Positions 1 to 28,957 of a stretch of DNA of 28,957 bases are shown in pieces (the stretch's first letter is position 1; each line of letters starts with the position of its first letter). The translations under genes were made by a program, and so were the position numbers. The notes below the pieces were generated by a model. That model was not told the DNA's origin and ran no database searches. It worked only from the letters and a program-made list of their open reading frames with translations. The stretch comes from Pseudopyrenochaeta lycopersici (taxonomy: Eukaryota > Ascomycota > Dothideomycetes > Pleosporales > Pseudopyrenochaetaceae), in NCBI GenBank assembly GCA_003313425.1, contig NHZP01000166.1, positions 1 through 28,957 of the forward strand, read 5' to 3'.

Positions 1-350
1 AGTGTGGCGAAAAGCCTATATATGATTCCTTCACTAGAAAGTTGTCAAGTGGTCAGGAGCCTTGCGCCCTTACCCTTGTCACTTTACACGTAAGCGGAGC
101 CCATGACTGGAGGGAGTAACGAAGTGTTAAACCACTTGGGGTTTAGGGCCTCTGCACTTAGTAAAAAGCCGAAGCACGGACGTAGCGCGAGATCATCTGA
201 TCTGTGGGTTGCCACATTTGTTAAATCTAAGATTTGATTGGTCTATGGATATAGATTCATGGAAGGGGCACAACACTGCCTGCTATGTAGTAGTTTCTCT
301 TGGCGGTGCCATAGATAGAGGTATATAATAACAACAGAGGATCTGTTCAT
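1..350 (+). promoter_or_regulatory. Unit 1 common region: partial origin, hairpin chain, promoter
   Basis: The window starts inside the origin stem-loop. Its inner stem GGC-gaaaa-GCC, the TATATATGATTCC loop and the right arm CACTAGAAAGTTG (32-44) are present; the loop has one T fewer than all other copies. A mini-hairpin AC-GAA-GT lies at 119-125, followed by the AAACC/GGTTT hairpin, the inverted CCAAT box (GATTGG) near 236 and a TATA box (TATATAAT) near 322. The start-site motif is a degenerate CATGGATATG near 348. Confidence 0.8.
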
Positions 351-391
351 GGATATGTTTTTACAATATGTAGTTTTTTACTACACATGCG

Positions 392-1179
392 ATGGAGTCG
401 CGCTCTGGACAGGGCACTATGGCGGGAGCCAGTGCTACCATAAGCTTCTTATCTATTGTGCGTCAGTTACAGGAAGGGAGTTCCTGTCATTGTCTGTAGA
501 GACAGCTGTGGAACTGCAACGCGTGAGAGATCACGTGCACAGTCAGTGTTTTTCTTTTCCCTAGACACACGATAGGTTGGCCGATGCCCAACTAACGTCA
601 TCACAGTGCTGGTGGAGCAGCATGTCTCTCTCATGCGTATGTTGATGCGTCGGGAAGACAAGCTTGGTCGATTACCAAGGAGAGCGGACGCCTTCCCCGT
701 CAATGTACCGAACAACAACGCATGGAGTGTTTTGAGGATTACCAGGAACTCAGTGCCTCGGGGGTACCCAGCAGGCGGCTTCTTGTCCTCAAGGTGGATA
801 CGAGTTGGAATGGCGTGGTGCGGAGCCGTGTTATATTTGCGAAGCTCTCCCTAGAGACACTGGATGTTGTCGTACAGCGGGTACTGCCTAGAATTAGATT
901 GCCTGGTGGGCAAGTTGTAGATGCTGTAAGCATGGAGGACTAATGCAGTTTTTAAGCATTGGGTACTATAGTACGCGGGTGGATTGCGCGTGTACTTTGT
1001 ACAGAATCTGTCAGCCTTGTGTGTGTGCGCACCGGATTTCATCGAGGTTTCTTCGTTTGAATGGGTTTTCTGGGGTAAGGCCATTCGGGAAGTGTTACTG
1101 GTTTACTGGGATCAGTGACGCTGTGGGAGCAGTACTACCGTCTGGCAGGAACTGGTTGAGTTGCACTCGTTCTTGGTAA
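392..1179 (+). pseudogene. Paralog-family gene, frameshifted (unit 1)
   Basis: This is a member of the two-exon W-x-TKESG family of unknown function. The start ATG at 392 sits in the usual GCGATGG context; exon 1 runs to 541, the intron is 542-606 (starting GTCAGT, ending TCACAG) and exon 2 starts at 607. Similarity to units 9 and 12 continues to the stop at 1177-1179, including WSITKESG, a VDCAC...CQPC cluster and GISDAVGAVLPSG, but it jumps frame three times: near 485 in exon 1, near 635-645, and near 930-945. Each jump is a one-base indel. Either the gene is decaying or the consensus here carries indel errors, since unit 2 next to it shows the same kind of damage. The stem GTTGG/CCAAC in the intron (576-580/588-592) is intact. 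Confidence 0.75.
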
Positions 1180-1403
1180 GAATATCGTGATGGTAAGATT
1201 ACCTAGTCCCTGTGTCCATGTAATGGTAATAATATATCTCAGTAGGAGATGGGTGCCTAGCATATTTATGGAGATAATTTGTTTGGGTATATTTGGTAAT
1301 TGTAAGTAACGATTGTGTATCGAATTTTTTTATTTTTGTTAAAAAAAGTCATTGTATACTGTATGAATCTGTGCTAACTACAGTAGTATGAGTAGTAAAG
1401 AAT

Positions 1404-1865
1404 TTGTATGGCGGAGGTCAGTCAGTAAGGGTGGGAGCCCTCAGGATGGAACACCATCTCTCAAAAATTGGCTATGTCCAATTTTGTTGTGGCTGGAGGG
1501 CACGTTGGGTCAGCTGGGTGTGGCGCGGATTTCGCGCACAGACCCTCCCTCAACTTTCTAGTGTGGCGTTTTGCCTATATATGATTCCTTTCACTAGAAA
1601 GTTGTCAAGTGGTCAGGAGCCTTGTGCTCGGGACCACGACGGCTTTACATCTAAGCAGGGCTCGAGTGGAACGAGAAGCGAAGCGTTAAACCACCTGGGG
1701 TTTAGGGCCTCTGCCCCTGTAAGCGCTAGCCTTTTTGTCACGTGGAGGCGGGAACACATGGAGTGGGCAGTATGTCTCTTTCTACGGAGTAGTGTATCTT
1801 GGCGGAGCTTGAGGTAGTAGTTTATATGCGCGCTCTGGCCGATATGTAGCGCGCTATCGTGGAGC
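1404..1865 (+). promoter_or_regulatory. Unit 2 origin, common region and Rep promoter
   Basis: The origin stem-loop is at 1551-1604 with inner stem GGC-gtttt-GCC. Upstream are an AGGGT/AGCCCT hairpin and a GCGCGgatttCGCGC hairpin; downstream a GTGGTC/GACCAC stem encloses GAGC/GCTC, then the GCGAAGC mini-hairpin (1678-1684) and the AAACC/GGTTT hairpin. The later part of the region differs from the paralog-family units: there is no GATTGG box, and the TATA-like TTTATAT at about 1821 precedes GCGCGC repeats. Confidence 0.75.
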
Positions 1866-3169
1866 GATATTATGGCGGAGCCTACAGTAGAGACGTGCGA
1901 TATTTCTACGGTGGGACCGTCGTCCAGGCGGACATCTTTTGCGTCTTTGTTTTCGTGTAGTACGCAAGGAAGTGCGTCGAGCGTAGTCGATGACTCCCGG
2001 ATGGGTGTGGGGAAAGGGAAGCTTTCGCGTTGAGGGTCAACGTTGTTCTTGTAACGTGGTCACAGAGTCGTCTGGAGGACGCGTCCGAATTTTACAATCT
2101 TCTTCAGGAGCGGATGCCTCCTGGTACGGAGATTTACGGTTGTCAAGAGCGCCATGAGGATGGGAAGCCTCATTATCACGCAGTGTTTCGGTTCACGCGT
2201 CGGACGAATTGGTGGATGCACACCAACATTTTCGAATTTATCTGTCTGATGGCACAGTGGATACAGAGGCTATTCGGTTCTCGGTGCCTCGCCCGTATCA
2301 GCGGGAGTCTGATTTTTTGGAAAACACACAGAATTACTGTTTTAAGTATGATGATTCGGTGTTTTTTGGGACGAGGATCGAGTCACTCAGTAGTTCTGAG
2401 TCTCGGAAGCGCAAGTTCGCTGAGGTGCTGGTGGAACCTGATTACATTAAAGCGAAACGGATGTTGATGGAACTGGATCCTATGGGATTTATCAAGTTTT
2501 ATAACGCGTACTCGTCCTATCTGGCTAACGAGAAGAAAGGCACGCCTGGACGAGGGTGGGTAGACTCTGGGGAACCCCTGAAGCAATGGCGTGTCCCGGT
2601 CGCCATGGAGGATTGGCGGAAAAGTTACATTGGGGGGTCATATAAGGGTAGACCTGTCCCCCTCATTCTTGTTGGTCCATCGAGGCTAGGAAAGACAGAA
2701 TGGGCTTTGCGTGCAGGGCCCAAGCCCATGGCCATGTCCAATCAGTGGAACCTTGGTAATTATGACCAGGATGCGTCGCATCTCGTGTTAAACGACATCG
2801 ATTTCAGCAATTTTGGGTCTGGTAAGTACCGGTATTGGCGAGAAATACTTGGTGGGCAGGCTTGTATTGATGCGCACGATCGGTATACGAAAACACGGAA
2901 TTTGAGTTGGGGATTTCCAGTCATTGTAACGTGCAATGCAGATAATGACCCTCGGAAAGTTCCTGACATTGCGGCGTATCTGAAGCATGCGCCTTGTGTT
3001 GTGGTTGAGTTGGCGGATCTACTGTATGTAGATGACGATCTAGCGTAGATAGATAGAATGAAAAATGGCTATGTCCATTTTCGTGGTGCGGTGCGGGTCG
3101 CGCACAGGCCAGAACTCAACTTTTCTAGTGTGGCGCAGCCTATATATGATTCCTTTCACTAGAAAGTTG
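1576..3169 (+). repeat. Origin-to-origin duplicate of 14196-15797
   Basis: Sequence identity to unit 10 starts at the TATATATG in the origin loop and ends just after the right arm of the next origin. Outside these points the flanks differ. All length differences (8 bases in total) are small deletions in this copy. The duplicated block is therefore exactly one loop-to-loop replicon unit. Confidence 0.85.
1872..3048 (+). pseudogene. rep: CRESS-type replication initiator Rep, frameshifted copy
   Basis: By eye this is the same sequence as the intact Rep gene of unit 10 (14497-15675), with the same start context and the same stop, but with two single-base deletions: one near 1994 (CC to C) and one near 2211 (GGG to GG). 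The first breaks the frame about 40 codons in, before HUH motif I; the second lies after motif II. From 2209 onward the helicase half is open, with Walker A GPSRLGKT and the downstream WGFPVIVTCN strand. As written it cannot make full-length Rep. I saw no substitutions against unit 10, only deletions in short repeats, so a consensus error is as likely as real inactivation. If real, unit 2 would depend on the unit 10 Rep in trans. Confidence 0.85.
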
Positions 3170-4534: not shown

Positions 4535-5090
4535 GGAGTAGGTTTGTGTACCATTACGATGGAAGTGTTGTTGTGGAACAACGAAAAGTCAAAAGAAATT
4601 TTGACCAAGTCCACAGGAACTGTGGCTGGAAGACAGGCTGAGTCAGTGTGGCTCGGGAGAGCACATGGGTTGCTGTGGCGCGGACTTCGCGCACAGACCA
4701 GAAATCAACTTTCTAGTGTGGCGTTTTGCCTATATATGATTCCTTTCACTAGAAAAGTTGAGCAAGTGGTCGGCAGCCTTGCGCTGCCAGCCCTTGCAAC
4801 TTTACAATTAAGCAGGGCCGACGAGTGGAACGAGTAGCGAAGCGTTAAACTAGAATTAGTTTAGGGGCGCTGCACTTAGTAAGCAACGCAACGCACGGAC
4901 GTAGCGTGAGATCATCTGATCTGTGGGTTGCCCACTCTTTTTCAATCAATCATTTGATTGGTCTATGGCGATAGACACGGGGGTATCGGCACCCCGGTGC
5001 TTACTAGGGACTAGGTTCTCTTGGCGGTGCCATGGATAGAGGTATATAATAACCACAGGGGAGCTGTGTGCACGGAGTGTTCTACTTTGT
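4535..5090 (+). promoter_or_regulatory. Unit 4 origin, common region and promoter
   Basis: A CCACAG/CTGTGG hairpin and a GCGCGgacttCGCGC hairpin precede the origin at 4706-4760 (inner stem GGC-gtttt-GCC; right arm with an extra A). Just 3' the right arm AAAGTTG is repeated in complement as CAACTTT at 4797, enclosing GGCAGC/GCTGCC. Then come GCGAAGC, AAACTA/TAGTTT, GATC-atct-GATC, a GATTGG box, a TATA box near 5043 and GCACGGAGTGTT near 5070. Confidence 0.8.
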
Positions 5091-6114: not shown

Positions 6115-6690
6115 ATGACAATGAGAAGTCGTTGTGGGGCGGAGCTCCGTCATGAAGGGTGGCTACGCTTACGATGGAACATGGAATTTTCCAAAAAAAA
6201 AATGGCTAAGTCCAATTTTGTTGTGGCTGGAGGCCATGCAGAGTCACCTGGGGGTGTGGCGCGGAGAGCGCACAGGCCAGAACTCAACTTTTCTAGTGTG
6301 GCGCAGCCTATATATGATTCCTTTCACTAGAAAGTTGTCAAGTGGTCACCAGCCTTGCGCTGGAGACCCTCGACACTTTACATCTAAGCAGGGCCGACGA
6401 GTGGAACGAGTAGCGGAGCGTTAAACTCTTTAGAGTGTAGGGCCGCTGCACCCTGTAAGCAAAGCAGAGCACGGACTGTGCGGGTCACTTGACCTTGGTT
6501 TGCACGTGGGAGACACACCTGGCCCCACCACCCTCTCAATCAGCTTTCTGATTGGGCTATGGCGATAGACACAGGGAGTGAGCAGCGCTCTGCTAACTAG
6601 GATTAGGTTCTCTTGGCGTAGCGCAAGACAGATATCGAGAGATATAAGAGGGGGAAGGCTCTCTCCCCGCTCACGGAGTGTTCTCTATTA
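6115..6690 (+). promoter_or_regulatory. Unit 5 origin, common region and promoter
   Basis: A GCGCggagaGCGC hairpin precedes the origin at 6285-6337 (inner stem GGC-gca-GCC). Downstream are ACCAGC/GCTGG, a GC-GGA-GC mini-hairpin, AAACTCT/AGAGT, GGTC-actt-GACC and AATCAG/CTGATT hairpins, a GATTGG box, a TATAAG box at 6643-6648, and CACGGAGTG near 6672. Where family units have GCGATGG after the leader, this unit has GCGACTGC, so translation starts further downstream. Confidence 0.8.
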
Positions 6691-6808: not shown

Positions 6809-7372
6809 ATGATTGTGCCTCGGTGGGATCGTTGGCGCATACATTCAGGAGTTCCGGTTACGGGATGCCCAGGAGGGGTTCGCTTTGTGAAGCTGCGGTT
6901 TAAACAGGTGTTTTCCCCGAGCGGAGCGGAGGTATCTTCGATTCTTCGCAAGTCTTTGCCGGTAGGGACACGTTGGCATGCAGCTTGCCTTGGTGCTGGT
7001 GCACTTGACGCGGATGCCTCGCCTGTTGGTGATCCTGTGTGCAGTGTGTTGTATGGTGGTATCCGGGGGCCAGCATGCCGTGCGCCCTACTGCCAATTCG
7101 TCTGGGTAGACGTGTTCATTGATTTTGGTGGATGCAGTAGTCGCGAAGCGCTTGATCTGGGAAAACATGTTACGCTTTGGGGACGGAGGCCTTGCGTGAA
7201 GGCGTGTTCTGGAGGGTACGGTGATGCCAATGCAGAGCGTTGGGGTACTACAGGAGGTGCGCCCTTTGGTTACGCGTTTGACCAAGAGTTGTCTATGTTT
7301 TCGGCGCCATTGGAGTTCTGGCGGTGTGGCACTCCTCTTTTATTGGACGCGGAGGAGGAGGAGTTACGGTAA
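6809..7372 (+). CDS. Orphan 187-aa protein; capsid candidate by elimination
   Basis: The only long open frame in unit 5, about 130 bases after the start-site motif. An in-frame stop at 6797 fixes the ATG at 6809 as the first usable start in this frame; two short upstream ORFs (ATGs near 6746 and 6791) would have to be bypassed or reinitiated from. The N-terminus is moderately basic (PRWDRWR, then RFVKLRFK), and several stretches alternate hydrophobic and polar residues (FVKLRFKQVF, FVWVDVFIDF) as in beta strands; the C-terminus is acidic (DAEEEELR). It is not related to the W-x-TKESG family. Small multipartite ssDNA viruses carry a capsid of about this size on a segment of its own, and no other gene here fits that role. 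The assignment is inference; I recognise no specific motif. Confidence 0.6.
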   Translation: MIVPRWDRWRIHSGVPVTGCPGGVRFVKLRFKQVFSPSGAEVSSILRKSLPVGTRWHAACLGAGALDADASPVGDPVCSVLYGGIRGPACRAPYCQFVWVDVFIDFGGCSSREALDLGKHVTLWGRRPCVKACSGGYGDANAERWGTTGGAPFGYAFDQELSMFSAPLEFWRCGTPLLLDAEEEELR

Positions 7373-7734: not shown

Positions 7735-8235
7735 GTGCTCGAGGGTGGGAGCCCTTGTAGATGGAACATCAAATCTGAAGAAAAAATGCGTAAGTCCATT
7801 TTTGTTGTGGCTGGAGGGCACGGCGAGCCACGTTGGGGGGTGTGGCGCGGAGAGCGCACAGACCCTGCCCTCAACTTTCTTGTGTATATATGATTCCTTT
7901 CACTAGAAAGTTGTCAAGTGGTCACCAGCCTTGCGCTGGTTACCCTGGACACTTTACAATTAAGCAGGGCCTCGAGTGGAACGAGAAGCGAAGCGTTAAA
8001 CTACGAGTAGTTTAGAGGCAATGCACTTAGTAAGCAAAGCAGAGCACGGACGGTGCGGGTCAGATGACGCTGCTTTGCCCACTTTTCTTTGAATCATCTA
8101 TATGATTGGGCTATGAACATAGACACAGGGACGGGGCATTCCGCTGCCTGATAGGGACTAACACATCTTGGCGTAGCGCAAGGTATCGAGGAATATATAA
8201 GAGGGGAGGGCTTCCCACCCACGGAGGTGGTGTCT
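7735..8235 (+). promoter_or_regulatory. Unit 6 origin, common region and promoter
   Basis: The origin at 7872-7913 is of the short-loop type: the inner GGC stem is missing and the stem has one mismatch (CTTGTG versus CACTAG). It is preceded by a GCGCggagaGCGC hairpin and followed by ACCAGC/GCTGGT, GCGAAGC, AAACTAC/GTAGTTT and the long GCAAAGCAG/CTGCTTTGC stem. The ATTGG box lies near 8105, the TATA box (TATATAAG) at 8194-8201, and CACGGAGGTG near 8220. Confidence 0.8.
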
Positions 8236-8263: not shown

Positions 8264-9059
8264 ATGGAGACGCAAGCCGGAGTGAGTTCGCTTGGTGGAA
8301 GCAAGAGGTGGTCGATAGACACACTGGAACCAGGTGTGCGCGGGGAGCCGTTTGAAGGGACTGATGTTAACATACAGTGGGTGCGGGAGCACTTGCACGG
8401 TAGGCGCTTTTTCGTTGTAAACAAGTTAGAGACGCCTAACTAACTTGATTTTGTTTTCTGGGACAGAGCTTGTGGAACAAGGAATATCGATGACGTGCCA
8501 TAATAGAGAAGATGGCGGCGTATTGTGGTGGCCCACGAAGGAGAGCGGGAAGCCTCCTCAGCAGTGCGTGGACGAACAACATGACGGATGTCTTAGGGGC
8601 TATGTTGATTCTATTTCCCTCCGCGATAGTCGGCAGGCCTTGCTTGTTTTTAAGGTGGATACCCTGACCCCGATAAGTGGTCGCTGGCAGAGCATTGTCT
8701 TCTTTGCTCGGCTCTCGGAAGAGACACTCGATGTGTTTGTGCAACGTGTGTTGCCTCTTGTGGTGTTGCCAGGAGGGCACGCTGCAGATGTGCAGTTGTT
8801 GCTCGCAGTGTGCGCTGCGTTGGAGAACGGGCGGTTTTCTAGCAGCGCGTTGTGTAGTTGTACCTTGTATGAAGACTGCGCATGCTGTGCGGCGCTCACG
8901 AGAAAGCAGCGGCGGTTCGAGCGTTGGGATAGATTTCACTGCATGCGTCCGAATAGAGATTCAGCGTGGTTCGCTGGTGTCAGTGACGCTCCTGGTACAG
9001 TGTACCCGTTTGGGGCCGAGTGGCTGCGTTGTTGGTATGCGGATGCATCTCAGTGTTAA
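8264..9059 (+). CDS. Paralog-family protein, two exons (unit 6)
   Basis: Exon 1 8264-8399, intron 8400-8466 (GTAGGC ... GGACAG, 67 bases, branch-point-like CTAACTAAC), exon 2 8467-9059; product 242 aa. The start is the first ATG after the leader hairpin CAAC-tcctc-GTTG. Exon 1 encodes a hydrophilic N-terminus ending GEPFEGTD...WVREHLH. Exon 2 has WWPTKESGKPPQQC, then QALLVFKVD, LSEETLDVFVQRVLPL, and a cysteine cluster CSCTLYEDCACC (CxC-x5-CxxC) that could bind zinc, ending with SDAPGTVYPFGAEWL. No signal peptide or membrane span is evident. The closest relative is unit 16. I do not recognise the family; diversification across units suggests a host-facing role, which is inference. Confidence 0.8.
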
Positions 9060-9324: not shown

Positions 9325-9812
9325 AAAAAAAAATCCCAAATTTTTTTGGCTAAGTCCACAGGAATTGTGGCTGGAGGCGATGCAGAGTCACATGGAGGTG
9401 TGGCACATGGGGGGGGCACGGGCCCCGACTCAACTTTCTAGTGTGGCGAACCGCCTATATATGATTCCTTTCACTAGAAAGTTGTCAAGTGGTCAGGAGC
9501 CTTGCGCTCCTTGACCCCTGACACTTTACATTGTATGCGTTGCCACGACTGGAGGGAGTACCGAAGGGTTAGGCTCTTTAGAGGCTAGAGGCAAAAGCCC
9601 CTGTAAGCAAAGCAGAGCACGGACGTCGCGGGTCAGATGATCACTGCTTGCCCACTTTTCTCTCAATCAGTACTGTGATTGGTCTATGAACGTAGACAGC
9701 ATGGAAGGGGCACATTATTGCCTGCTAGGGACTAGTGTCTCTTGGCAAAGACAGCATAGACATCGACATATAAAAGAGGGGAGCCCCCTCCCCGCGCACG
9801 GAGTGTTCTACT
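9325..9812 (+). promoter_or_regulatory. Unit 7 origin, common region and promoter
   Basis: The origin is at 9431-9484 with the strongest inner stem, GGCG-aac-CGCC. The left flank has CCACA/TGTGG. Downstream are GTCAGGAGC/GCTCCTTGAC, the covarying mini-hairpin CC-GAA-GG, GGCTCT/AGAGGCT, and a GTCTA/TAGAC hairpin. The ATTGG box is near 9677, the TATA box (ATATAAAAG) near 9768, a GGGG/CCCC hairpin follows, and GCACGGAGTGTT is near 9796. Confidence 0.8.
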
Positions 9813-9841: not shown

Positions 9842-10626
9842 ATGGCATCGCACACTGGGCAAGAGGCTGAGGCGGGTTTCGCTGGCACCCCTATCCTCCC
9901 ATCGACGATAGATGGGCTGCAAGAAGGATCTTCTTGCGCGGTGTCGGTAGAGACAGAGGCAGAGTTTAACGTAGTGAGGGGTCACGTGCCGGGTAGGTGA
10001 TCTCTTTGTGTCGTTGGCGATGGCAGTAGGGGAGCCTATCTGACATGAGTGCAGTATTCATGAAACGCGGTATTTCTCTCACTCTCTCCTTGGATTTGTC
10101 GGGGAGACAATCTTGGTGGGTGACCAAAGAGAGTGGACGGCTTCCTCGCGAATGCGTTTCTCAGAAGCACACGGAGTGTTTACAGTACCACAAGGAACTG
10201 TGTGCAGAGGGGGTTACCCGGCAGTCGCTCCTGGTCCTCAAGGTGGAGGCGCTCCATCAGGATAGGGTGGTGCGGAGCCATGTTACTTTTGCGAAGCTCT
10301 CGGTAGAGGTACTGGAGGTGGTTGTGCAGCGCGTCCTACCTCTTCTCGTATTGCCCTCCGGCAAGACGGCGGATGTCTCTGTTGTTACTACAGTGTTTTA
10401 CGGGTTAGACCTTGGGTGTTATGGAACTTCCGTGGACTGCGGGTGCAAGCTCGATAAGCGTTGCAAAGAGTGCGAGTCAGTGTCTTATGAAAAACGGCGG
10501 TTTAATCGTTCAGAAGGATTTTCTTCTGTAAGGCCGGTGTCAAAGCTTTATTGGTTTATTAGGATCAGTGATGCAGTAGGGATAATGCAGCCGGAAGGAG
10601 AGCAGTGGTTAACGTGCCGGCTATGA
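9842..10626 (+). CDS. Paralog-family protein, two exons (unit 7)
   Basis: Exon 1 9842-9992, intron 9993-10054 (GTAGGT ... GTGCAG, 62 bases, branch-like CTGAC), exon 2 10055-10626; product 240 aa. The start codon is the first ATG after the CTAC/GTAG leader hairpin. The N-terminus contains STIDGLQEGSS, shared with unit 12 and, frame-broken, with units 1 and 4. Exon 2 has SWWVTKESGRLPREC, RQSLLVLKVE, FAKLSVEVLEVVVQRVLPLL, the best cysteine cluster CGCKLDKRCKEC, and a C-terminal block YWFIRISDAVGIMQPEGEQW. A second set of C/H residues (C-x5-H-x3-C) follows the TKESG motif and may form another metal site. The reading frame is intact. Function unknown. Confidence 0.82.
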
Positions 10627-17115: not shown

Positions 17116-17139
17116 GTAATGGCAAGGGCTTTAGTACAA

Positions 17140-17728: not shown

Positions 17729-18506
17729 ATGGAGTCGTGTACTATGGACGATAGACAGGCGGCTGCCTCTAGCATGAGTTTGTCCCCATCTCTTATAGAT
17801 GGGTTGCAGGAAGGAAGTTCTTCCGCATTGTCCGTAGGGACACCCATGGAACAGCAGCTGGTGAGGGATCACGTGCACAGTCAGTGTCTTTGTCTTCTAA
17901 ACACGGGAGAAGTTGGTCAGGCCAACTCACGGAGTAACAGGTTTAGTGGAACGCGGTGTGTCTCTTACGCTCAGCATGAATGCGTCGGGAAGGTGTTCCT
18001 GGTGGGTAACCAAGGAGAGCGGGCAGCCTCATTGGCAGTGTGTAGAGGAACAGCACAGGACGTGTCTAGATGAGTATGAGCAGTTTATTGCAGAGGGTGG
18101 GACCCGGCAGTCGCTCCTGGTCCTTAAGGTGGACATCCTCAGGTATGGGGCAGTGCGGAGTCTAGTTGTATTTGCGGAGCTCTCAGTAGAGGCCCTTGAT
18201 GTGCTTATACGGCGCATTCTACCTCTTATCACAACGCCGGAAGGCCAGTTAGTGGATGCTTTTGTTGTTGACGAAGTGCTGCACCTGTTGGATAATGGGT
18301 GGTACAGCACCAGCGTGGACTGTGGGTGCACACAGGATAAGATGTGTAAGCCTTGTGTATCGGTAGACGATTCCCCGCCACGATTTCATCGACTAGATCG
18401 ATTTTACGGTGTATGGCCGTTTGGAGAGGGAGATTGGTTTACTGGACTCAGCGACGCTATTGGAATACGAAAACCGCAGGACGCAGACTGGCTGAGTTGT
18501 TCGTAG
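17729..18506 (+). CDS. Paralog-family protein, two exons (unit 12)
   Basis: Exon 1 17729-17879, intron 17880-17940 (GTCAGT ... TAACAG, 61 bases), exon 2 17941-18506; product 238 aa. The leader before the ATG carries the palindrome TTCCTTAAGGAA. Exon 1 contains LIDGLQEGSS as in unit 7. Exon 2 has CSWWVTKESGQPHWQC, RQSLLVLKVD, FAELSVEALDVLIRRILPL, CGCTQDKMCKPC and WFTGLSDAIGIRKPQDADW. The intron has an AGTTGG/CCAACT stem (17911-17916/17922-17927). The 5' splice site GTCAGT departs from the GTAAGT/GTAGGT form used by most paralogs and is shared with unit 1. Function unknown. Confidence 0.82.
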
Positions 18507-18719: not shown

Positions 18720-19130
18720 GAAATCGTGGTGCGGAGCTCGGTCAGTAAGGGTGGGAGCCCTCAGGATGGAACACCATCTCTCCAAAAAAAAAATAAAAAT
18801 TGGCTAAGTCCAATTTTGTTGTGGCTGGAAGACAGGCTGAGTCACCTGGGGGTGTGGCTCGAGAGAGCGCAGACATGGGTTGCTGTGGCGCAGATTGTGC
18901 GCACAGGCCTCTCCGACAACTTTCGAGTGCTATATATGATTCCTTTCACTAGAAAGTTGTCAATGTGGTCGGCAGCCTTGTGCTGCCTGACCCATGTAAC
19001 TTTACCCTAAGCTTTGCCCATGACTGGAGGGAGTACCGAAGGGTTAGGCTCCTTGGAGACTAGGGGCAAAAGCCATTAGTAAGCAAAGCAGAGCACGGAC
19101 GTGAGGGGTTGGTCGAGCGATCAGCGAGTT
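18720..19130 (+). promoter_or_regulatory. Unit 13 origin and truncated common region
   Basis: AGGGT/AGCCCT, AATTGG/CCAATT and GCGCAgattGTGCGC hairpins precede the origin at 18917-18959 (short loop, CGAGTG mismatch). GGCAGC/GCTGCC, CC-GAA-GG and GGCTCC/GGAGACT follow. The shared region then stops near 19110: there is no GATTGG box, standard TATA box or ACGGAGTG motif. Confidence 0.75.
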
Positions 19131-19381: not shown

Positions 19382-20156
19382 ATGTTTAGCAAAGGATTTG
19401 CTCAGTGGGACTGTTATACTGTGCAGCGGGCAGTGCACGCACTTGAAGAGAGTCGCGTAGCTCCTTTCTCGGGGAGCGAGGCTGAGATCGTATCTCTAGT
19501 GGAGAACATCCAAGGTTGGTTCGACTCATACGTGTGCTACGTTTGTGGCACACAGGCCATGCTTGGTCCTGTGTTTTGCTAACGGTAAGGTAGTGTTTCA
19601 AGACGCTGCCGTTTCTGTCACGTGCGAGGTTTCGCAGCAATGTGGTGTAAAGTGGTGGTTTACAAAGGAGAGCGGTAGGCTCCCGCCGTTGTGTGATGAT
19701 TGTATATCATTTTTACGGAGTGTGCCAGGCGGGTTGATGCCCCGGCGACGACGGGCTGCATTGGTTGCGAAGTTTATGCGCGGGCCGCAGGAGTGCGAGG
19801 TGTTGGTTGCGCCCTTGGTTTCCTCTGCCGTTGAGTGGCTTTACGCGGAGATTGCGCCTATGGTGTTGGTACATGTTCGACATGACACTTGGGGTTCTGT
19901 GCAGCAGATCTGCTCATGGCTTGTGTCCCCCGTTCCCTGCCCTTGTGTAGGTGCTGGGACTCGCTGTGTTGAGCAGCAACTGTGGGACTTATGTGGCTGG
20001 AGGCTTGTTCGACTCCCTGAGCTCAATCCTGCTCCTTTGCCAACGTGGTGGGCAGGTGTATCAGATGCTGTAGGTGATCGCCAGCTCGGATCGCGCCCTT
20101 GGATGCGTTGCCCCTGCGATCGCTCTGATGTAAGGTGTTTTGTTGTTATAGAGTAG
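19382..20156 (+). CDS. Divergent paralog-family protein, two exons (unit 13)
   Basis: Exon 1 19382-19514, intron 19515-19593 (GTTGGT ... AGGTAG, 79 bases, branch-like TGCTAAC), exon 2 19594-20156; product 231 aa. Exon 1 ends APFSGSEAE...VENIQ, matching the PFPGT...HVQ end of other paralogs, and the intron has the same phase and place. Exon 2 begins VFQDAAVSVTC and has KWWFTKESGRLPPLC. Beyond that it diverges: an arginine-rich stretch (MPRRRRAAL) replaces RQSLLVLKVD, the cysteine cluster is rearranged (CPCVGAGTRC), and only WWAGVSDAVGDRQLGSRPW recalls the C-terminal block. It is the most distant member here and also has its own promoter region. It may have a different function within the family. 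Confidence 0.75.
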
Positions 20157-20369: not shown

Positions 20370-20860
20370 TTCGGTGCGGAGCGTTGTTGTTAAGGGTGCG
20401 AACCCTAGGATGTTTCGACAAAAAAATTTGGCGAAGGACAAATATGGGTGGCGGTGCGGGTCGCGCACAGGCCCCTCTGACAACTTTTCTAGTGTGGCGC
20501 AGCCTATATATGATTCCTTTCACTAGAAAGTTGTCAAGTGGTCAGGAGCCTTGCGCTCCTTGACCCCTGACACTTTACTGTAAGCAGAGCCTACGACTGG
20601 AGGGAGTACCGAAGGGTTAGGCTTTTTAAAGCCTAGAGGCGCTGTCCCCTGTAAGCAAAGCAGAGCACGGACTGTGTGGGTCAGATGATCACTGCTTGCC
20701 CACTCTTTTTCAGAACGTCAGTCTGATTGGTCTATGAACATGGACGCAGGGACGGGGCACCACATTGCCTGCTAGGGACTAGGTGCTCTTGGCAGAGACA
20801 GCATGGACATCGACATATAAGAGGGGAAGGCTCTCTCCCCGCTCACGGAGTGTTCTCTAT
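20370..20860 (+). promoter_or_regulatory. Unit 14 origin, common region and promoter
   Basis: AGGGT-gcga-ACCCT and GTGCG/CGCAC hairpins precede the origin at 20481-20533 (inner stem GGC-gca-GCC). Downstream are GTCAGGAGC/GCTCCTTGAC, CC-GAA-GG, GGCTTTttAAAGCC, GCAAAGCAG/CTGCTTGC, a GATTGG box, an ATATAAG box near 20816, and CTCACGGAGTG near 20843. Confidence 0.8.
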
Positions 20861-20908: not shown

Positions 20909-21732
20909 ATGGAGTTGCATCCCGGAGAGTTTTATATCGTTAGGAGGCCTGTGGACCGGCCAAGTGTAGCGGAGTATACGTCTTTTGTTATGGACGCCCT
21001 CGAAGAGGGTTGCAAGGGGGACCCGTTTGCAGGGACTGAAGACGAGTTAGGGATTATTGAAGAATACTCTCACAGTGGGTACCCTGTTGTGTTTCTCCGT
21101 GGAGTTGGTTGAAACTCAGAGTAACTGATGTTGATGTAGTGTTGGTAGAACACGATATTTCTCTTACGTGTCACGTGCAGGCGAACGGGGAACGGGTCTG
21201 GTGGTTCACCAAGGAGAGCGGGCAGCCTCCCATGTCTTGTGGTAGGCTTAAAGACTGTAGCTGCTTAGATCGCTATGAGGGTTCTGGCGATTTGGATGGT
21301 GCGTCTCGGGCGCGTCTCGTCTGGAAGGTCGATGTTGTGGGAGAATACGATCAACTGCGGAGCTTCGTTGCGTTTGCGGAGCTGTCTGTCGATATGCTCA
21401 ATGTGTTTGTGCGGCAGGTACTGCCACTCGTTACTATGATTGCAGCTGATGCTGCTAGGGCGGATGAAGTGGAGGCGGTGTTCCGCGCTGTAGAGAATGG
21501 GCATTTCTCTAGTGGTGCCCTTTGTGGATGCACAGTTGGAAAGTGTTGCACTTCGTGTCTGTTGCTAGGTCGGTGGCAGCGTGGGTTTGCACGTCTTGAT
21601 GTATTTGGCGGTGCATTTCCGCTCCCATCGCATAGATGGTTTAATGGATTTAGCGATGCTGTTGGGTTGGTGTTTCCATCGCGGGTAGATTGGTTATCGT
21701 GCAGGTATGTCCATGGTGCGTTATGGTGTTAA
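20909..21732 (+). CDS. Paralog-family protein, two exons (unit 14)
   Basis: Exon 1 20909-21074, intron 21075-21139 (GTGGGT ... GATGTAG, 65 bases, branch-like GTAACTGAT), exon 2 21140-21732; product 252 aa. Exon 1 is longer and divergent but ends GDPFAGTEDE...EEYSH at the conserved intron position. Exon 2 has VWWFTKESGQPPMSC, FAELSVDMLNVFVRQVLPL, CGCTVGKCCTSC and WFNGFSDAVGLVFPSRVDW. RARLVWKVD replaces the usual RQSLLVLKVD. The intron carries GAGTT/AACTC (21102-21106/21113-21117). The reading frame is intact. Function unknown. Confidence 0.8.
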
Positions 21733-21894: not shown

Positions 21895-22410
21895 TGGCTA
21901 AGTCCGACACAGTGTGGCGCAAAAAAAAGTTGTCAATTGCCCTGTGCGCGATTTAGCGTCATTTGGGGGTACATGGTGCTCACCCAGAAGTGGGTGGGCG
22001 GGAGGTCACACTCCAGCCACAGTCAACATTTCTAGTGAGGCGCAGCCTATATATGATTCCTTTCACTAGAAAGTTGTCAAGTGGTCAGGAGCCTTGCGCT
22101 TCTGACCCATGTAACTTTACCTTAAGCTGTGGCCACGAGTGGAACGAGAAGCGGAGTGTTAGACTACTTGTAGGCTAGGGCCTCTGCCCCTTGTAAGCCT
22201 ACAAAAGCACGGACTGTGCGGGTCATCTGACTGTTGTGGGCACGTGGGAGACACTCTTGGCCCCACTCCAGCTAAATCTATGATTTAATTGGTCTATGTC
22301 TATAGAGTCATGGAATGTGCATTCTATTGCTTACTAGGGACTAGTATTTCTTGGCAGCGCTCAAGAGAGAGAGGTATATAGGAACAACAGAGGATCTGTT
22401 TCTACGGAGT
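21895..22410 (+). promoter_or_regulatory. Unit 15 origin, common region and promoter
   Basis: The origin at 22024-22076 has a variant left arm (CAACATTTCTAGTG). A CACCCA-gaag-TGGGTG hairpin replaces the usual GC-rich one upstream. From 22048 on the region is the same as in unit 8, with the TATA box near 22374 and ACGGAGTGTGG near 22404. Confidence 0.8.
21905..21945 (+). other. Relic of an origin lacking its loop
   Basis: CAGTGTGGCGC is followed directly by an A-run and AAAGTTGTCAA: the left and right halves of the origin are present but the TATATATGATTCC loop and inner arms are missing. It lies about 110 bases before the complete unit 15 origin. Confidence 0.45.
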
Positions 22411-23676
22411 GTGGCAGTCCCTTGAGGGATCCTTTTTTATTTCTACTTTGCGATGGGGTCGCATACTGGATAGTGTGCTTTTGCGGGGTCCGCTTGCACA
22501 ACCACCCTCCTATCTATAGTAGATGGGGTACAGGCAGGATGTCGCTGCCCAGTGTCTGTAGGGACATCCACAGCGTTGAGAGATCACGTGCACAGTGAGT
22601 ATCTTTCTCTTCTGACACGCAATCAGTTGGGTACTGTAACTGATAGAGTAGTAGCCCTAGTGGAGCGGCGTGTGTCACTAACTACCTAGGCAGATTTGCC
22701 AGGCAGACGACATTGGTGGGTAACCAAAGAGAGCGGGCAGCCTCCCCGCGAATGCATTTCGCAGAAACACACGGAGTGTCTTCACCGCTACGGAGAACTC
22801 TGTAGACAGGGAGGGACGCAACAGTCGCTCCTTGTATTCAAGGCAGATACGAACTACTAGGGCGAGACTCTTTGTCTCGTTGTATTTGCGAAGCTCTCTC
22901 TAGAGGCATTAGACATCGTCTTGCAGAGTATTTTACCCCTTCTCATTCTGTCGTCGGGGCAGAGGGCAGACGCTGTAGAGCTTGATGGAGTATGCTCCAT
23001 ATACTGCTAGAGAAACCTCCTCAGCAGTGTAGACTGCGGATGTAACGAGTTCGGTTTCTGTAGGCCTTGCAGACGCATAAGGCCCGCGTCAGGGAGGTTT
23101 TCCCATTCCAATGGATTTGATAGAGTTTATCTCAATAGGAAGCGTATGTAGTTGAGTAGGATCAGCAACACAGTAGGAGTAGTACAGCCATAAGGTTATG
23201 GAGTAGCAGTCATGTCTATAGGACAGCTAGATGGTTATAAGAAGACGTGGTCTATCAGAGTCGTATCTAGTAAGAGACAGGTTAAGATGTAGTAACCCAA
23301 AAAAAGTACATTTGGTAATAGTAAGTACTTTTTGTTTATTTACAGTATTCCAAATTCATTAAAATAAGGATAACCCAAAAACTATAGAATAGTTACTAAT
23401 GGTACGATGTAAGGTTTGTAGATTCGGGAAGAAGAGCAAAGAATGTTGGGTGCGGAGCTCAGTTGTTAAGGGTGTGAGCCCTTCAGATGGAATTTCCAAA
23501 AAAAATTTGCTAAGTCCACAGGGCGTGTGGCTGACAGTCACGTTGGGACAGCGTGGCGCGATGAGCGGACAGGGGGTGGTGTGGCGCGGATTCTGCGCGC
23601 ACAGACCAGAAATCAACTTTCGAGTGCTATATATGATTCCTTTCACTAGAAAGTTGTCAAGTGGTCAGGAGCCTTG
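22048..23676 (+). repeat. Origin-to-origin duplicate of 11043-12671
   Basis: Second copy of the unit 8 block. Identity ends at GAGCCTTG: unit 9 continues CGCTCC and unit 16 continues TGCTCC, about 50 bases after the loop of the next origin. Confidence 0.88.
22453..23193 (+). pseudogene. Paralog-family gene with in-frame stops only (unit 15)
   Basis: Identical by eye to the unit 8 copy, at a constant offset of 11005 bases. It has the same ATG, the same likely intron (22595-22651) and the same six in-frame stops (TAG at 22471, 22687, 22858, 23008, 23149; TAA at 23191). The identity means the unit was copied after the stops had arisen, or that the copies are being homogenised. Confidence 0.85.
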
Positions 23677-24012: not shown

Positions 24013-24802
24013 ATGGAGTCGCCGCATGGAGTGAGTTCTCTTGCTTCCACCAAGAGGCGGTCGATAGACACACTGGAACCAGGTGTGCGCGGAGAGCCGT
24101 TTGAAGGGACTGATGTTAATATACAGTGGGTGCGGGAGCACTTGCACGGTAGGCGCTTTTTCGTTGTAAACAAGTTAGAGATGACTAACTAACTTGATTT
24201 TGTTTTCTGGGACAGAGCTTGTGGAACAAAGAATATCGATGACGTGCCATAATAGAGAAGATGGCCGCGTATTGTGGTGGCTCACTCGGGAGAGCGGGAA
24301 GCCTCCTCAGCAGTGCGTGGAGGAACAACATGACGGATGTCTTAGGGGCCATGTTGATTCTATTTCCCTCGGCGATAGTCGGCAGGCCTTGCTTGTTTTT
24401 AAGGTGGATACCTCGATAAGTGGTCGCTGCCAGAGCATTGTCTTCTTTGCTCGGCTCTCGGAAGAGACACTCGATGTGTTTGTGCAACGTGTGTTGCCTC
24501 TTGTGGTGTTGCCAGGAGGGCACGCTGCAGATGTGCAGTTGTTGCTCGCAGTGTGCGCTGCGTTGGAGAACGGGCGGTTTTCTAGCAGCGCGTTGTGTGG
24601 TTGTACCTTGTATGAAGGTTGCGTATGCTGTGCGGCGCTCACGAGAAAGCAGTGGCGGTTCGAGCGTTGGGATAGATTTCACTGCATACGTCCGAACGAA
24701 GACTCAGCGTGGTTCGCTGGGGTCAGTGATGCTCCTGGTACAGTGTACCCGTTTGGGGTCGAGTGGCTGCGTTGTTGGTATGCGGATGCATCTCAGTGTT
24801 AA
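24013..24802 (+). CDS. Paralog-family protein, two exons (unit 16)
   Basis: Exon 1 24013-24148, intron 24149-24215 (GTAGGC ... GGACAG, 67 bases), exon 2 24216-24802; product 240 aa. It is the close sister of unit 6, with the same exon ends and the same non-coding tail type. Differences cluster in the first 20 residues and in a short loop after FKVD, where unit 6 has two or three more residues. An ATG seven bases upstream (24006) is out of frame; the ATG at 24013 corresponds to that of unit 6. The cysteine cluster is CGCTLYEGCVCC, with unit 6 having CSC in the first half. The intron stem AGTTAG/CTAACT (24173-24178/24185-24190) is conserved. Confidence 0.82.
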
Positions 24803-25079: not shown

Positions 25080-25440
25080 CCAAAATTTTTGGCTAAGTCC
25101 ACAGGAACTGTGGCTGGAGGCGATGCTGGGTCACATGGAGGTGTGGCACACGGGGTGCACGGGCCCGGCCTCAACTTTCTAGTGTGGCGTTTTGCCTATA
25201 TATGATTCCTTTCACTAGAAAGTTGTCAAGTGGTCACCAGCCTTGCGCTGGTTACCCTGGACACTTTACCTGTAAGCTTTGCCAACGAGTGGAACGAGAA
25301 GCGGACGCGTTAGGCTTTTTAAAGACTACGGCATAAGCACTAGCTAAGCAAGCCGAAGCACGGACGTCGCGGGTCATCTGACCTCAGGTTGCACGTGAGG
25401 AGCACCCCTGCCCTCACACGGACCAGATGTTCATAGTTAT
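25080..25440 (+). promoter_or_regulatory. Unit 17 origin and partial common region
   Basis: CCACAG/CTGTGG and a GGGCC-rich hairpin precede the origin at 25172-25225 (inner stem GGC-gtttt-GCC). ACCAGC/GCTGGT, GGCTTTttAAAG and GGTC-atct-GACC follow. The GNA mini-hairpin is altered (GCGGACGC), and the GATTGG/TATA/ACGGAGTG module of the family units is absent. Confidence 0.75.
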
Positions 25441-26600: not shown

Positions 26601-26604
26601 CAAC

Positions 26605-27115
26605 GAAGAATTTGTATGGCGGAGGTCAGTCAGTAAGGGTGGGAGCCCTGAAGATGGAAAACCATCTCTCAGAAATTGGCTATGTCCGATTTTGTTGTGG
26701 CTGGAGGTCACGTTTTACCGGGGTGCTGAAAAATTTTTCAGCCACGTCAACTTTCTAGTGTGGCGTTTCGCCCTTATATGATTCCTTTCACTAGAAAGTT
26801 GTCAAGTGGTCGAGAGCCTTGCGCTCGGGACCACGACGGCTTTACTGTAAGCAGAGCCTGTGAGTGGAGCGAATAACGAAGTGTTAGACTACTTGTAGGC
26901 TAGGGCCTCTGCCCCCTGTAAGTAACACAACGCACGGGCAGTGCGGTCATCTGACCATGGGTTACCCACATTTTATTCAATCATCTATATGATTGGTCTA
27001 TGGATATAGAGGTAGGGAGTGTGCGTTTCTTCGCCCACTAGGGACTAGGTGCTCTTGGTAGTTACCAAGTTGTGAAGGTATATAACAAGAACAGAGGATC
27101 TGTGTTTACGGAGTG
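26605..27115 (+). promoter_or_regulatory. Unit 18 origin, common region and promoter
   Basis: A perfect 18-base palindrome GCTGAAAAATTTTTCAGC (26725-26742) stands where other units have the GC-rich hairpin. The origin is at 26748-26801 with inner stem GGCG-ttt-CGCC and a shortened loop (CTTATATGATTCC). GTGGTC/GACCAC, AC-GAA-GT, GACTAC/GTAGGC and CAATCAT/ATGATTG follow, then the GATTGG box, a TATA box near 27079, ACAG/CTGT and TTACGGAGTGTT near 27106. Confidence 0.8.
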
Positions 27116-27163
27116 TTGCTCTCCCCTAAGGGATTGAACGTTTTCTTATTGTTGTCATTTACG

Positions 27164-28018
27164 ATGGAATCGCAATTTGGAGAGGGTACGACTATCTCCG
27201 GTGTGAAGCGGTCCCATTCGCTGTCTTTGTTTAACTGGGATCAGTTACCGGTGACGTCCAAAGAGGGTAGTAAGGGGTACCCGTTTGCAGGAACAGAGAA
27301 TCAGATGCAATCGGTGCGGAGTCACGTGCAAGGTAGGTGGACCTTACAGTGCTTGTTGGGCATCTCCCCAACTGACACCGTCATAGAGCTGGTGGAACAA
27401 GATAGGTCGCTAACATGCCACGTCTTGCCGAATGGCAGACGACGTTGGTGGTGCACCAAGGAGAGCGGGAAGCCCCCGGATGAATGCATTTCCGGGAAGC
27501 AGTGCGATTGTTTGTTAGGATGCGGCGACATCTACATGGATGATCGGGTCAGGCAGTCCCTGTTGGTCCTTAAGGTGGATGTCCTTGCAGGCGATCAGGT
27601 GCGGAGTCTAGTTGTATTCGCGGAGCTCTCTGTAAAGGCACTGGATGTGCTCTTGCAGCGCATAGTACCTCTGCTCATACTACCGGGAGGTGGTGCTGTG
27701 GAACCTTCAGTTGTGGAAACGTTGTTTCAGTCGTTAGACAATGGGTGCTTTTCTAGCACTCTTTGGTGTGGGTGTACACTTGCTGTGATTTGTCCACAGT
27801 GTAGGGCGATCCCCTCTCAGCAGTGGAGGTTTACGTGGCGGGATGGCTTTAGTGGGGTTGCTCCAGATGGAATTTCTGGTTGGTTTGTTGGGATCACCGA
27901 TGCGGTAGGCATGGTACAGCCGTTCGGAGAAGACTGGCTAAGCTGCGGTACTGTGTTCCCCGAGATAGTATTGAGTAGTTCTGATTGCGGGTGCATGGAG
28001 TGTAGTCCGCATTCTTGA
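27164..28018 (+). CDS. Paralog-family protein, two exons (unit 18)
   Basis: Exon 1 27164-27332, intron 27333-27386 (GTAGGT ... TCATAG, 54 bases), exon 2 27387-28018; product 266 aa when spliced. The intron is a multiple of three and has no stop, so an unspliced message would give a protein 18 residues longer. Exon 1 ends GYPFAGTENQ...VRSHVQ. Exon 2 has RWWCTKESGKPPDEC, RQSLLVLKVD, FAELSVKALDVLLQRIVPL, CGCTLAVICPQC and WFVGITDAVGMVQPFGEDW. A C-terminal extension of about 24 residues with extra cysteines (DCGCMEC) is unique in this window. The leader carries TCCCCTAAGGGA. Function unknown. Confidence 0.82.
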   Translation: MESQFGEGTTISGVKRSHSLSLFNWDQLPVTSKEGSKGYPFAGTENQMQSVRSHVQGRWTLQCLLGISPTDTVIELVEQDRSLTCHVLPNGRRRWWCTKESGKPPDECISGKQCDCLLGCGDIYMDDRVRQSLLVLKVDVLAGDQVRSLVVFAELSVKALDVLLQRIVPLLILPGGGAVEPSVVETLFQSLDNGCFSSTLWCGCTLAVICPQCRAIPSQQWRFTWRDGFSGVAPDGISGWFVGITDAVGMVQPFGEDWLSCGTVFPEIVLSSSDCGCMECSPHS

Positions 28019-28159
28019 TTGTTTGATTGAGTTTTGGTAATTGAAGTGTTGTAATGGTAGGTTATGCGTGAGTCGTACTCTTTTAATATAGTTTAGTACA
28101 ATTATTATTTTTCTTGTCCTGCAAACATTGTTTATAGGAAAAATGATGCATTAGATTTA

Positions 28160-28695
28160 CTACAATGCTTGGTTCGTAAGGGTGTGGGTGCCCTTGGGAT
28201 GGAACATCACTCTTCACAAAAAAATTGGCTAAGTCCGATTTCCCTGTGGCTGGAGGCCATGCAGAGTCACGCTGGGGGCTGTGGCTCGGGGGTGCACGGG
28301 CCTGCCCTCAACTTTCTAGTGTGGCGTTTTGCCTATATATGATTCCTTTCACTAGAAAGTTGAGCAAGTGGTCGGCAGCCTTGCGCTGCCAGCCCTTGCA
28401 ACTTTATCTTAAGCTCTGGCCCGCGAGTGGAACGAGTAGCGAAGCGGTAAACTAGAATTAGTTTAGAGGCAAGAGCCCTGGTAAGCAACACGCAGCACGG
28501 ACCGTGTGAGTCAGATGACCGCAGGGTTGCCCACTCTTTTTCCAATCAGTACTGTGATTGGTCTATGGAGATAATATCATGGAATGTGCACTTAGTTGCT
28601 CTCTAGGGACTAGTGTGTCTTGGCAGCGCTCAAGACAGGGACATATATAACAACAGTGTCTCTGTTGGCACGGAGGTGTTGCACTCCCCTAAGGG
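28160..28695 (+). promoter_or_regulatory. Unit 19 origin, common region and promoter
   Basis: AAGGG/GCCCTT precedes the origin at 28309-28362 (inner stem GGC-gtttt-GCC). AAAGTTG pairs with CAACTTT around GGCAGC/GCTGCC. GCGAAGC, AAACTA/TAGTTT, CACGGaCCGTG and the GATTGG box follow. TATATAA is near 28644, AACAG/CTGTT follows, and GCACGGAGGTG is near 28669. Confidence 0.8.
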
Positions 28696-28719
28696 ACTTT
28701 GTGCTCTTTTTGCACTACG

Positions 28720-28957
28720 ATGGAATCGCTACAGGTAGTAGATAGTGTAGGGACTACGGATAATAGTCATTTGCCGTCAGTCGACCAGCTTCGGCCGGGT
28801 CAGAGGGGGGAGCCCTTTCCTGGGACAGTTGCAAACATTGAATACCTGCGGAGTCGCGTGCCTGGTAGGTATCTACTTTGGTTTCTCACGTTGGGCCCTT
28901 CCCAACTAACCTCATCACAGAGTTAGTGGAGGACTCTGTGTCCCTTACCTTCTGTAT
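28720..28957 (+). CDS. Paralog-family protein, 5' part only (unit 19)
   Basis: The gene is cut by the window end. Exon 1 28720-28864 ends GEPFPGTVAN...LRSRVPG-like; the intron is 28865-28920 (GTAGGT ... TCACAG, 56 bases) with stem GTTGGG/CCCAAC (28890-28895/28901-28906) and branch-like CCAACTAAC. Exon 2 opens with ELVEDSVSLTF, as in the other paralogs. The leader has the same TCCCCTAAGGGA palindrome as unit 18. Whether the rest is intact cannot be seen. Confidence 0.78.

Follow-up and report, generated by a model that had tools for sequence, protein, structure and literature searches.

A tandem array of origin-bearing units

We analysed the unplaced contig C166 (NHZP01000166.1) of the fungus Pseudopyrenochaeta lycopersici, one of 188 contigs of a 62.73-Mb assembly, over its whole length of 28,957 bases (the window; names such as C4 or C17 denote other contigs of this assembly). 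Among the best 120 of 7,994 scored candidates, the conserved RNA polymerase I subunit RPA2 of this genome finds its nearest named relatives in Pleosporales (Plenodomus lindquistii, 91%; Parastagonospora nodorum, 91% across 51% of the query), with a further record at 92%. The window is a head-to-tail array of units of about 1.57 kb that share a stem-loop with a predicted replication origin, and one unit encodes an intact replication-associated protein (Rep). Elsewhere in the assembly, units of this kind meet telomere repeats exactly at the predicted Rep cleavage site. The window array contains neither host flank nor telomere, both of which were found on other contigs of the genome.

The origin core, TATATGATTCC, has 19 exact matches in the window, all on the + strand and spaced 1543-1593 nt apart; shuffled windows, with one mismatch permitted, gave 0.30 on average and at most 2. 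An imperfect stem, 13 bp at its longest, carries the core in its loop, and the six window origins that we folded as single-stranded DNA (ssDNA) all formed a stem-loop (z -1.8 to -6.1). An earlier sequence-only reading of this DNA had described 19 head-to-tail stem-loop copies with an invariant core, belonging to a multipartite element that encodes its own Rep, and of these the first is confirmed by the exact matches and the second supported by the unit size, the shared origin region, the many segment types and the location of Rep on its own segment. The same reading placed a promoter after each origin, which we could confirm for only part of the set: 34 of 63 full-length segment types have a TATA-like box at unit position 230-420, which in 22 of them lies at 295-305, the expectation from shuffles being 3.2.

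The Rep genes

Two units had been credited with a Rep of the circular Rep-encoding ssDNA (CRESS-DNA) type; the frame of U10 (type 4) is intact, and that of U02 is interrupted. The 392-aa protein carries the motifs VLVTWSQ, PHYHAV, YCFK, GPSRLGKT, VLNDIDF and VTCN, mostly conserved among its relatives, of which we take PHYHAV to be HUH motif II, YCFK the catalytic tyrosine motif YxxK and GPSRLGKT the Walker A motif. It thus unites HUH, YxxK, Walker A/B and motif C in one protein, as a geminivirus/genomovirus-type Rep does. A Rep profile matched the replication-associated protein structures 7kik, 6q1m and 1l2m (E 4e-6 to 3.6e-5). Relatives with 33-57% identity were identified, among them proteins of Pyrenophora tritici-repentis (1600-base contig), P. 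seminiperda (241,788-base contig) and Colletotrichum sojae (1422-base contig). A single-sequence search against structures gave no significant match, and the Pfam geminivirus models matched only below their cut-offs. The P. seminiperda relative is 57% identical, and is likely to be chromosomally integrated, since it lies on a contig of that length.

Genome-wide, we identified 17 Rep matches, nine of them full-length, intact copies with 100% identical protein. The remaining eight are pieces of broken copies (U02 of the window, and C99) or of the Rep of type 65, a second, HUH-only Rep that is 46% alike to that of type 4 and is found on C92, C119 and C131.

Segment types and modular unit borders

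We cut 133 units from the stretches read and typed the 127 of at least 300 nt, placing in one type those with 97% identity over 90% of the shorter unit. This yielded 67 segment types, with pairwise identities within types of 98.05-100%, and an estimated total of about 104 (Chao1). Among the 63 full-length types, mean pairwise identity is 87% over the first 60 nt and 83% over the last 40 nt, and 40% at mid-unit. The element is therefore multipartite, with many segments, a shared origin region, Rep on type 4 and the HUH-only Rep on type 65.

The units behave as modules running from CC to TATATGATT, because their ends stay constant while their neighbours differ. Where two copies of a type are followed by different units (79 pairs), their identity is 99.8% over the last 40 nt (complete in 78 of 79 pairs) and 96.9% over the last 100 nt, and the successors are 84% alike over their first 40 nt and 63% over their first 100 nt. 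Similarly, 68 same-type pairs with different predecessors share 95% of their own first 100 nt, and their predecessors 41% of their last 100 nt (all these values being ungapped counts). Neighbour order is nearly random: two of 104 neighbouring pairs are of the same type (shuffle mean 1.35), which is not what copying out of a single circle would give. Certain blocks are nonetheless shared between contigs, namely 17-tel3-10-tel1 on C119 and C81, with the same interposed telomere tracts, and 6-27-1 on C54 and C61.

Arrays at chromosome ends

Genome-wide, the core had 864 matches, against 79 for a backward-read control pattern, and from this difference we estimate roughly 785 units, or about 1.2 Mb. 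Lone core matches on large contigs were background in all three cases inspected. Among the matches listed, array contigs have a single orientation, except for C23, which has an array at each end, both pointing outwards. The arrays read lie at contig ends, and the telomere (repeat TTAGGG in P. lycopersici), where present, is on the side toward which the units point. Among the first 100 of 263 telomere-repeat places, which fall on C1-C89, we identified a telomere on ten contig ends, eight with an array (C5, C18, C50, C54, C65, C77, C83 and C89) and two, C17 and C62, with no array over roughly 10 kb from the end. Twelve telomere-capped arrays were identified, and in seven of these (C18, C50, C77, C92, C99, C118 and C119) the cap begins exactly at an origin. 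The capped ends at C65:290777 and C89:99898 both stop inside one and the same segment type, at an identical distance of 388 nt, which may reflect either a shared end or an erosion hot spot.

On the chromosome side, arrays are connected to non-unit sequence at 19 junctions, whose 60-nt flanks comprise 15 different strings and sort into 11 kinds, one of them recurring on five contig ends. The proximal flanks of C5 and C54, compared over 128 and 94 nt respectively, match no unit read. We additionally identified pairs of empty and occupied ends: the array-free telomere flanks of C17/C62 match array-bearing C4 at 99.98% over about 5 kb, and array-bearing C101 at 100% over 1604 nt. The empty end reads flank-TTAGGGTTAGGGTTAGGG..., and the filled C101 end flank-TTAGGGTTAGGGTT/CC (here and below, a slash marks a border of a unit). 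As the 19 proximal junctions join non-unit flanks, and occupied ends can be compared with empty ones, the array is chromosomal.

Junctions between units and telomere repeats

We searched the genome for TTAGGG repeats running into the right half of the origin, permitting a gap of 0-12 nt, and for units running into telomere repeats, permitting a gap of 0-14 nt. In all 41 distinct telomere/unit sites the tract ends in GGTT immediately before CC, in one of six possible phases; the backward control gave none. Forty of these sites read TTAGGGTT/CC, and one, on C4, has an extra G (TTAGGGGTT/CC). Likewise, in all 19 unit/telomere sites (control 0), TATATGATT is followed at once by AGG (GATT/AGG), with perfect repeats in 17 and a variant first repeat on C50 and C92. 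A further match to the right arm of the origin, on C89, was rejected, as it forms no junction and sits in a predicted intron.

We read 37 of the 41 telomere/unit sites directly, 18 of them interstitial, between units, and 19, all distinct, proximal, on the chromosome side. The interstitial sites (16 of 18 distinct) hold 1-5 hexamers; units thus join either directly (TATATGATT/CC) or through 1-5 whole, in-phase hexamers. The number of hexamers among the 104 neighbouring pairs is 0 in 94, 1 in four, 2 in two, 3 in two, 4 in one and 5 in one. Proximal stubs have one, two and three repeats in 1, 12 and 6 of the 19 sites, respectively, and are shorter than most terminal telomere tracts, which measure 29-143 nt (some being shortened by the stretch analysed or by variant repeats).

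The unit borders therefore coincide both with the predicted nick site and with the phase of the telomere repeat, a location that the sequence-only reading had missed. Because the unit meets the repeat exactly at the predicted Rep cut, the telomere is likely to be the landing and storage site of this many-segment element.

Cargo genes and other features

One cargo family, where the earlier description has an array dominated by a single intron-containing family, is present in 41 of the 63 full-length types. Of these 41 types, 29 give a spliced frame through a predicted intron that measures 54-86 nt and has a branch site of fungal type; two of these predictions (T14 and T37) are doubtful and look like wrong picks, leaving 27-29. 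Database searches with the family found neither a relative nor a known fold. Across exon 2 of 16 sequences, the proportion of nonsynonymous differences is below that of synonymous ones (pN < pS) in 120 of 120 pairs, with a median dN/dS of 0.365 over 113 unsaturated pairs, which we read as signs of purifying selection. The proteins of types 12, 43 and 66 (L025:8515-9234, L011:5560-6189 and L030:3-788), of 210-262 aa, resemble one another on visual inspection and are possibly a second cargo family.

The product of type 17 is a Rad52/Rad22 protein (97.9 bits in Pfam against a cut-off of 20.3, and a match to RAD52 in the PDB), with 13 copies in arrays, identical in protein; the presumed host RAD52, on C12, is only 45-48% alike to it, in two pieces. 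Type 21 encodes a 353-aa protein with a basic N-terminus and no match in Pfam or PDB (structure model with a predicted local distance difference test score, pLDDT, of 36), which is possibly a capsid protein. Type 24 (L014:716-1111) has an F-box-like N-terminus at 19.7 bits, below the Pfam cut-off; the Clink protein of nanoviruses is an F-box protein. No reverse-transcriptase family was found among the Pfam matches of 19 different single open reading frames (ORFs) and 23 members of set A3.

Within the window (Table 1), U08 and U15 (11054-12633 and 22059-23638) are the same letter for letter, and neither these nor U11 (15780-17348) has a convincing gene; all three are possibly decayed or non-coding segments. 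A second hairpin lies about 25-49 nt downstream of the predicted nick. In an alignment of 13 window origins out of 19, which gives 11 distinct rows, 91.8% of the stem's cells are paired (82.4% after shuffling) and double changes number 10, where shuffles give 3.9. Counts of base pairs showing a double change (3, shuffles 2.2) and of additional pair types (7, shuffles 5.9) are unremarkable. Taken together, these values are suggestive of covariation between units, with partial compensation.

Table 1. Features of the window (contig C166), with positions on the forward strand
Feature	Position	Strand	Basis
Origin core U01	19..29	+	exact match; predicted nick TATATGATT/CC between 27 and 28
Origin stem-loop U02, 13-bp stem, core 1578-1588 in loop	1551..1604	+	predicted nick 1586/1587
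U02, second Rep-segment copy, coding frame interrupted	1587..3151	+	ORF comparison
Origin core, U02/U03 junction 3151/3152	3143..3153	+	exact match
Origin core, U03/U04 junction 4741/4742	4733..4743	+	exact match
Origin core, U04/U05 junction 6319/6320	6311..6321	+	exact match
U05 (type 2) putative ORF, 187 aa, outside main family, without Pfam match	6809..7372	+	ORF
Origin core, short left arm, U05/U06 junction 7895/7896	7887..7897	+	exact match, folding
U06 cargo-family ORF	8490..9059	+	ORF, family comparison
Origin core, U06/U07 junction 9466/9467	9458..9468	+	exact match, folding
Second hairpin in U07 (GGTC AGGAGC / GCTCC T GACC), just 3' of nick	9491..9516	+	stem comparison
U07 cargo-family ORF, exon 2 from 10057	10045..10626	+	ORF, exon comparison
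Origin core, U07/U08 junction 11053/11054	11045..11055	+	exact match
Origin core, short left arm, U08/U09 junction 12633/12634	12625..12635	+	exact match, folding
U09 cargo gene exon 1 (predicted)	12996..13143	+	splice prediction
U09 cargo gene intron, 58 nt, GTAAGT...CTGAT...CAG (predicted)	13144..13201	+	splice prediction
U09 cargo gene exon 2 (predicted)	13202..13782	+	splice prediction
Origin core, U09/U10 junction 14206/14207	14198..14208	+	exact match
U10, Rep segment (type 4)	14207..15779	+	unit typing
Rep, 392 aa, HUH nuclease and superfamily 3 (SF3) helicase motifs	14497..15675	+	ORF, motifs, profile
PHYHAV (H101, H103)	14794..14811	+	motif in Rep
YCFK (Y156, K159)	14962..14973	+	motif in Rep
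GPSRLGKT	15301..15324	+	motif in Rep
Origin core, U10/U11 junction 15779/15780	15771..15781	+	exact match
Origin core, U11/U12 junction 17348/17349	17340..17350	+	exact match
U12 cargo-family ORF	17976..18506	+	ORF, family comparison
Origin core, U12/U13 junction 18941/18942	18933..18943	+	exact match
U13 (type 10) cargo-family ORF	19737..20156	+	ORF, family comparison
Origin core, U13/U14 junction 20515/20516	20507..20517	+	exact match
U14 cargo gene exon 2; same exon sequence in types T1, T38, T57	21142..21732	+	exon comparison
Origin core, U14/U15 junction 22058/22059	22050..22060	+	exact match
Origin core, U15/U16 junction 23638/23639	23630..23640	+	exact match
U16 cargo-family ORF	24239..24802	+	ORF, family comparison
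Origin core, U16/U17 junction 25207/25208	25199..25209	+	exact match
Origin core, U17/U18 junction 26783/26784	26775..26785	+	exact match
U18 cargo-family ORF, exon 2 from 27389	27164..28018	+	ORF, exon comparison
Origin core, U18/U19 junction 28344/28345	28336..28346	+	exact match; contig end cuts U19

Age of the arrays

The window array has a GC content of 0.49, a TA/AT index of 1.11 and a (CA+TG)/(AC+GT) index of 1.04; in seven flanks or array-free ends (L010, L018 and L023-L027) these indices are 1.58-2.22 and 0.61-0.82, respectively. By the thresholds in use for repeat-induced point mutation (RIP), 0.89 for TA/AT and 1.03 for (CA+TG)/(AC+GT), the flanks are RIPped on both indices, and the window array on TA/AT only, and weakly. 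Repeats as similar as the array units should be RIP targets in such fungi. Since they show little RIP despite this similarity, the arrays are likely to be younger than the last strong RIP cycle, or to have been renewed; the contrast between flank and array offers a dating handle, and recent activity is likely.

Proposed mechanism

We consider it probable, from the sequences at the junctions, that the arrays belong to a multi-segment Rep rolling-circle element of telomeres, whose Rep joins the 5' CC end of a single-stranded unit to the 3' TT end of the chromosome. Rep dependence, circular forms and the release of segments are steps that we infer. Rep would nick at TATATGATT/CC, as suggested by the unit borders at this site and by the nick after TT in Botrytis cinerea ssDNA virus 1 (BcssDV1; TACTCTT^CA in the text of PMC10731770). 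As each array unit is flanked by two origins, the unit between them could be released as a single-stranded circle. The Rep-bound CC end would then be transferred to a 3'-TT end, either a (short) telomere overhang ...GGGTT or the ...GATT of the last unit, after which the complementary strand would be filled in and telomerase would extend the new ...GATT end with AGGGTT. The next unit may join before telomerase acts (no hexamer) or after a few repeats (one to five hexamers). Repeated cycles would give rise to mixed arrays, blocks of which would be copied from one end to another by break-induced or Rad52-type exchange, and the arrays would serve as an archive and source of segments. Short telomeres are suggested as landing sites by the proximal stubs of 1-3 repeats, set against the length of the terminal tracts.

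With somewhat less assurance, we favour a fuller picture of an element with about a hundred segments, ligated singly onto telomere 3' ends and re-capped by telomerase, which carries its own Rad52-type protein and a selected cargo family, and for which the array is both archive and launch pad. Rep would accept telomere ends because the overhang ...GGGTT mimics the 3' end of its own origin, ...GATT.

Several observations weigh against this interpretation. The whole case is built on assembly sequence. Origin and telomere have TT in common, so that the exact cut is fixed only within GA/TT/CC. Five of the 12 telomere-capped arrays (C5, C54, C65, C83 and C89) stop within a unit, as plain erosion and healing would give. 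Recurring neighbour pairs number eight of 104 (shuffle mean 1.8, P about 0.01), indicating that some array blocks were copied between ends by recombination and not freshly joined, and as flank kinds recur on up to five ends, the proximal junctions may stem from fewer than 19 events. Some types, for example 3 and 47, have no long ORF on the motif strand. Finally, the choice of end-joining over insertion depends on the short proximal stubs, because insertion into a double-stranded tract would also yield strict orientation.

Such insertion is the principal alternative, and we allow it a modest chance: Rep, like an IS91/Helitron-type transposase, would insert a single strand after TT within the double-stranded tract (TT^AGGG). 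A clean insertion would preserve the repeat phase on both sides of the unit, as is observed (...TTAGGGTT/unit/AGGGTTAGGG...). However, random sites in tracts of up to about 140 nt predict long inner tracts, and all 19 proximal stubs have 1-3 repeats, although later shrinkage of the tract could mimic this.

It is rather unlikely that the arrays are a domesticated telomere system, maintained by the fungus in reserve for short telomeres or to store a diversifying gene family. The high frequency of arrays on the telomere-bearing ends surveyed, the short proximal stubs and the purifying selection on the cargo would fit such a role; against it stand the two telomeres without arrays and the element's own Rep, Rad52-type and possible capsid segments, which look self-serving. 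Slightly less probable again is host recombination alone, in which break-induced replication would spread the units as a subtelomeric satellite resembling Y', telomerase would cap them and Rep would be a passenger. The blocks common to C119/C81 and C54/C61 and the shared flanks are what it predicts, but homologous recombination leaves unexplained the single-nucleotide borders at the predicted nick, the single phase of the telomere/unit sites and the whole-module shuffling, and a passenger Rep sits poorly with nine intact copies identical in protein. That an assembler chained the free circles of a multipartite virus is nearly refuted: the window lacks a flank and many array contigs are unplaced, but the 11 host flank kinds with in-phase stubs, the terminal telomeres, the one orientation per end and the matched empty ends speak against it.

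Comparison with known systems

Among the closest known systems are two multipartite fungal ssDNA viruses of the Genomoviridae, namely BcssDV1, with four segments of about 1.7 kb, and Fusarium graminearum gemytripvirus 1 (FgGMTV1), with three segments, as described in the text of PMC10731770. As far as that description goes, they share with our element a fungal host, one gene per small unit, an origin common to all segments and a geminivirus/genomovirus-kind Rep on its own segment; the stem-loop with a nick after TT that they possess would have its counterpart here in the stem-loop of the six folded origins and the predicted nick. They differ in having 3-4 segments; here, 67 types were seen and about 104 are estimated, in units integrated at telomeres, for which circles and particles would be putative. 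The words "integrated" and "telomer" are absent from the main text of PMC10731770.

In placement, the arrays resemble the MoTeRs, telomeric retrotransposons of Magnaporthe oryzae of two kinds, which are reverse-transcribing (PMC7367193, PMC8381367). From these accounts, both form head-to-tail telomeric arrays with short (TTAGGG)n between units, truncated units healed by telomeres and block exchange between ends. In contrast to MoTeRs, our element has a DNA Rep and an origin at which its junctions lie, and it comprises dozens of segment types; it works alike without being a member of that group. The main text of PMC8381367, on telomeres in fungal genome evolution, does not contain the words virus, Helitron or DNA transposon. 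In the literature searched, which included PMC10731770, PMC8262958, PMC7367193, PMC8381367 and PMC9498494 and left most subscription papers and bioRxiv outside, we found no Rep element at telomeres.

The sequence-only reading had compared the layout to the proviral arrays of polydnaviruses, and the comparison stands for layout only. Bracovirus proviral arrays consist of tandem gene-bearing segments with shared excision sites in a wasp chromosome and use nudivirus-type machinery. Tandem, different segments with shared border sites are common to both, whereas the fungal host, the Rep-type replicon with its origin and the telomere site set our element apart (nudivirus genes were not searched for). 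Geminivirus-like tandem repeats in plant genomes are likewise tandem, integrated Rep-origin units; to our knowledge, they have no cargo family and no telomere link, both of which are present here. Human herpesvirus 6 (HHV-6) and Marek's disease virus, which have telomere repeats of their own, integrate in telomeres, probably by homologous recombination; genome storage at telomeres is shared with these viruses, and here the border is marked by a Rep origin. All telomere-targeted elements known to us are either retroelements or users of homologous recombination.

Finally, Helitrons and the IS91/IS200-type HUH transposons use an HUH nuclease for single-strand transfer beside a short, fixed target, as is proposed here, although with a geminivirus/genomovirus-type Rep, small multipartite units and a telomere target. 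Helitrons have 5'-TC...CTRR-3' ends inserted into A^T and encode a RepHel protein. We rejected a Helitron identity, as the units run from CC to TATATGATT beside TT^AGGG and the Rep has SF3-type helicase motifs.

Significance

If this interpretation is correct, the element would be the first telomere-specific one to act by HUH/Rep strand transfer; its unit borders fit a Rep that passes a DNA strand to the 3' end of the telomere. It would also have more segments than any other ssDNA replicon known, with dozens of types against 3-4 in described fungal ssDNA viruses, and it has a Rad52-type gene on a segment of about 1.6 kb. Storage at chromosome ends under one shared origin would answer the problem of segment loss that a multipartite ssDNA replicon faces, and the arrays would probably be a source of rapid change at the chromosome ends of fungi.

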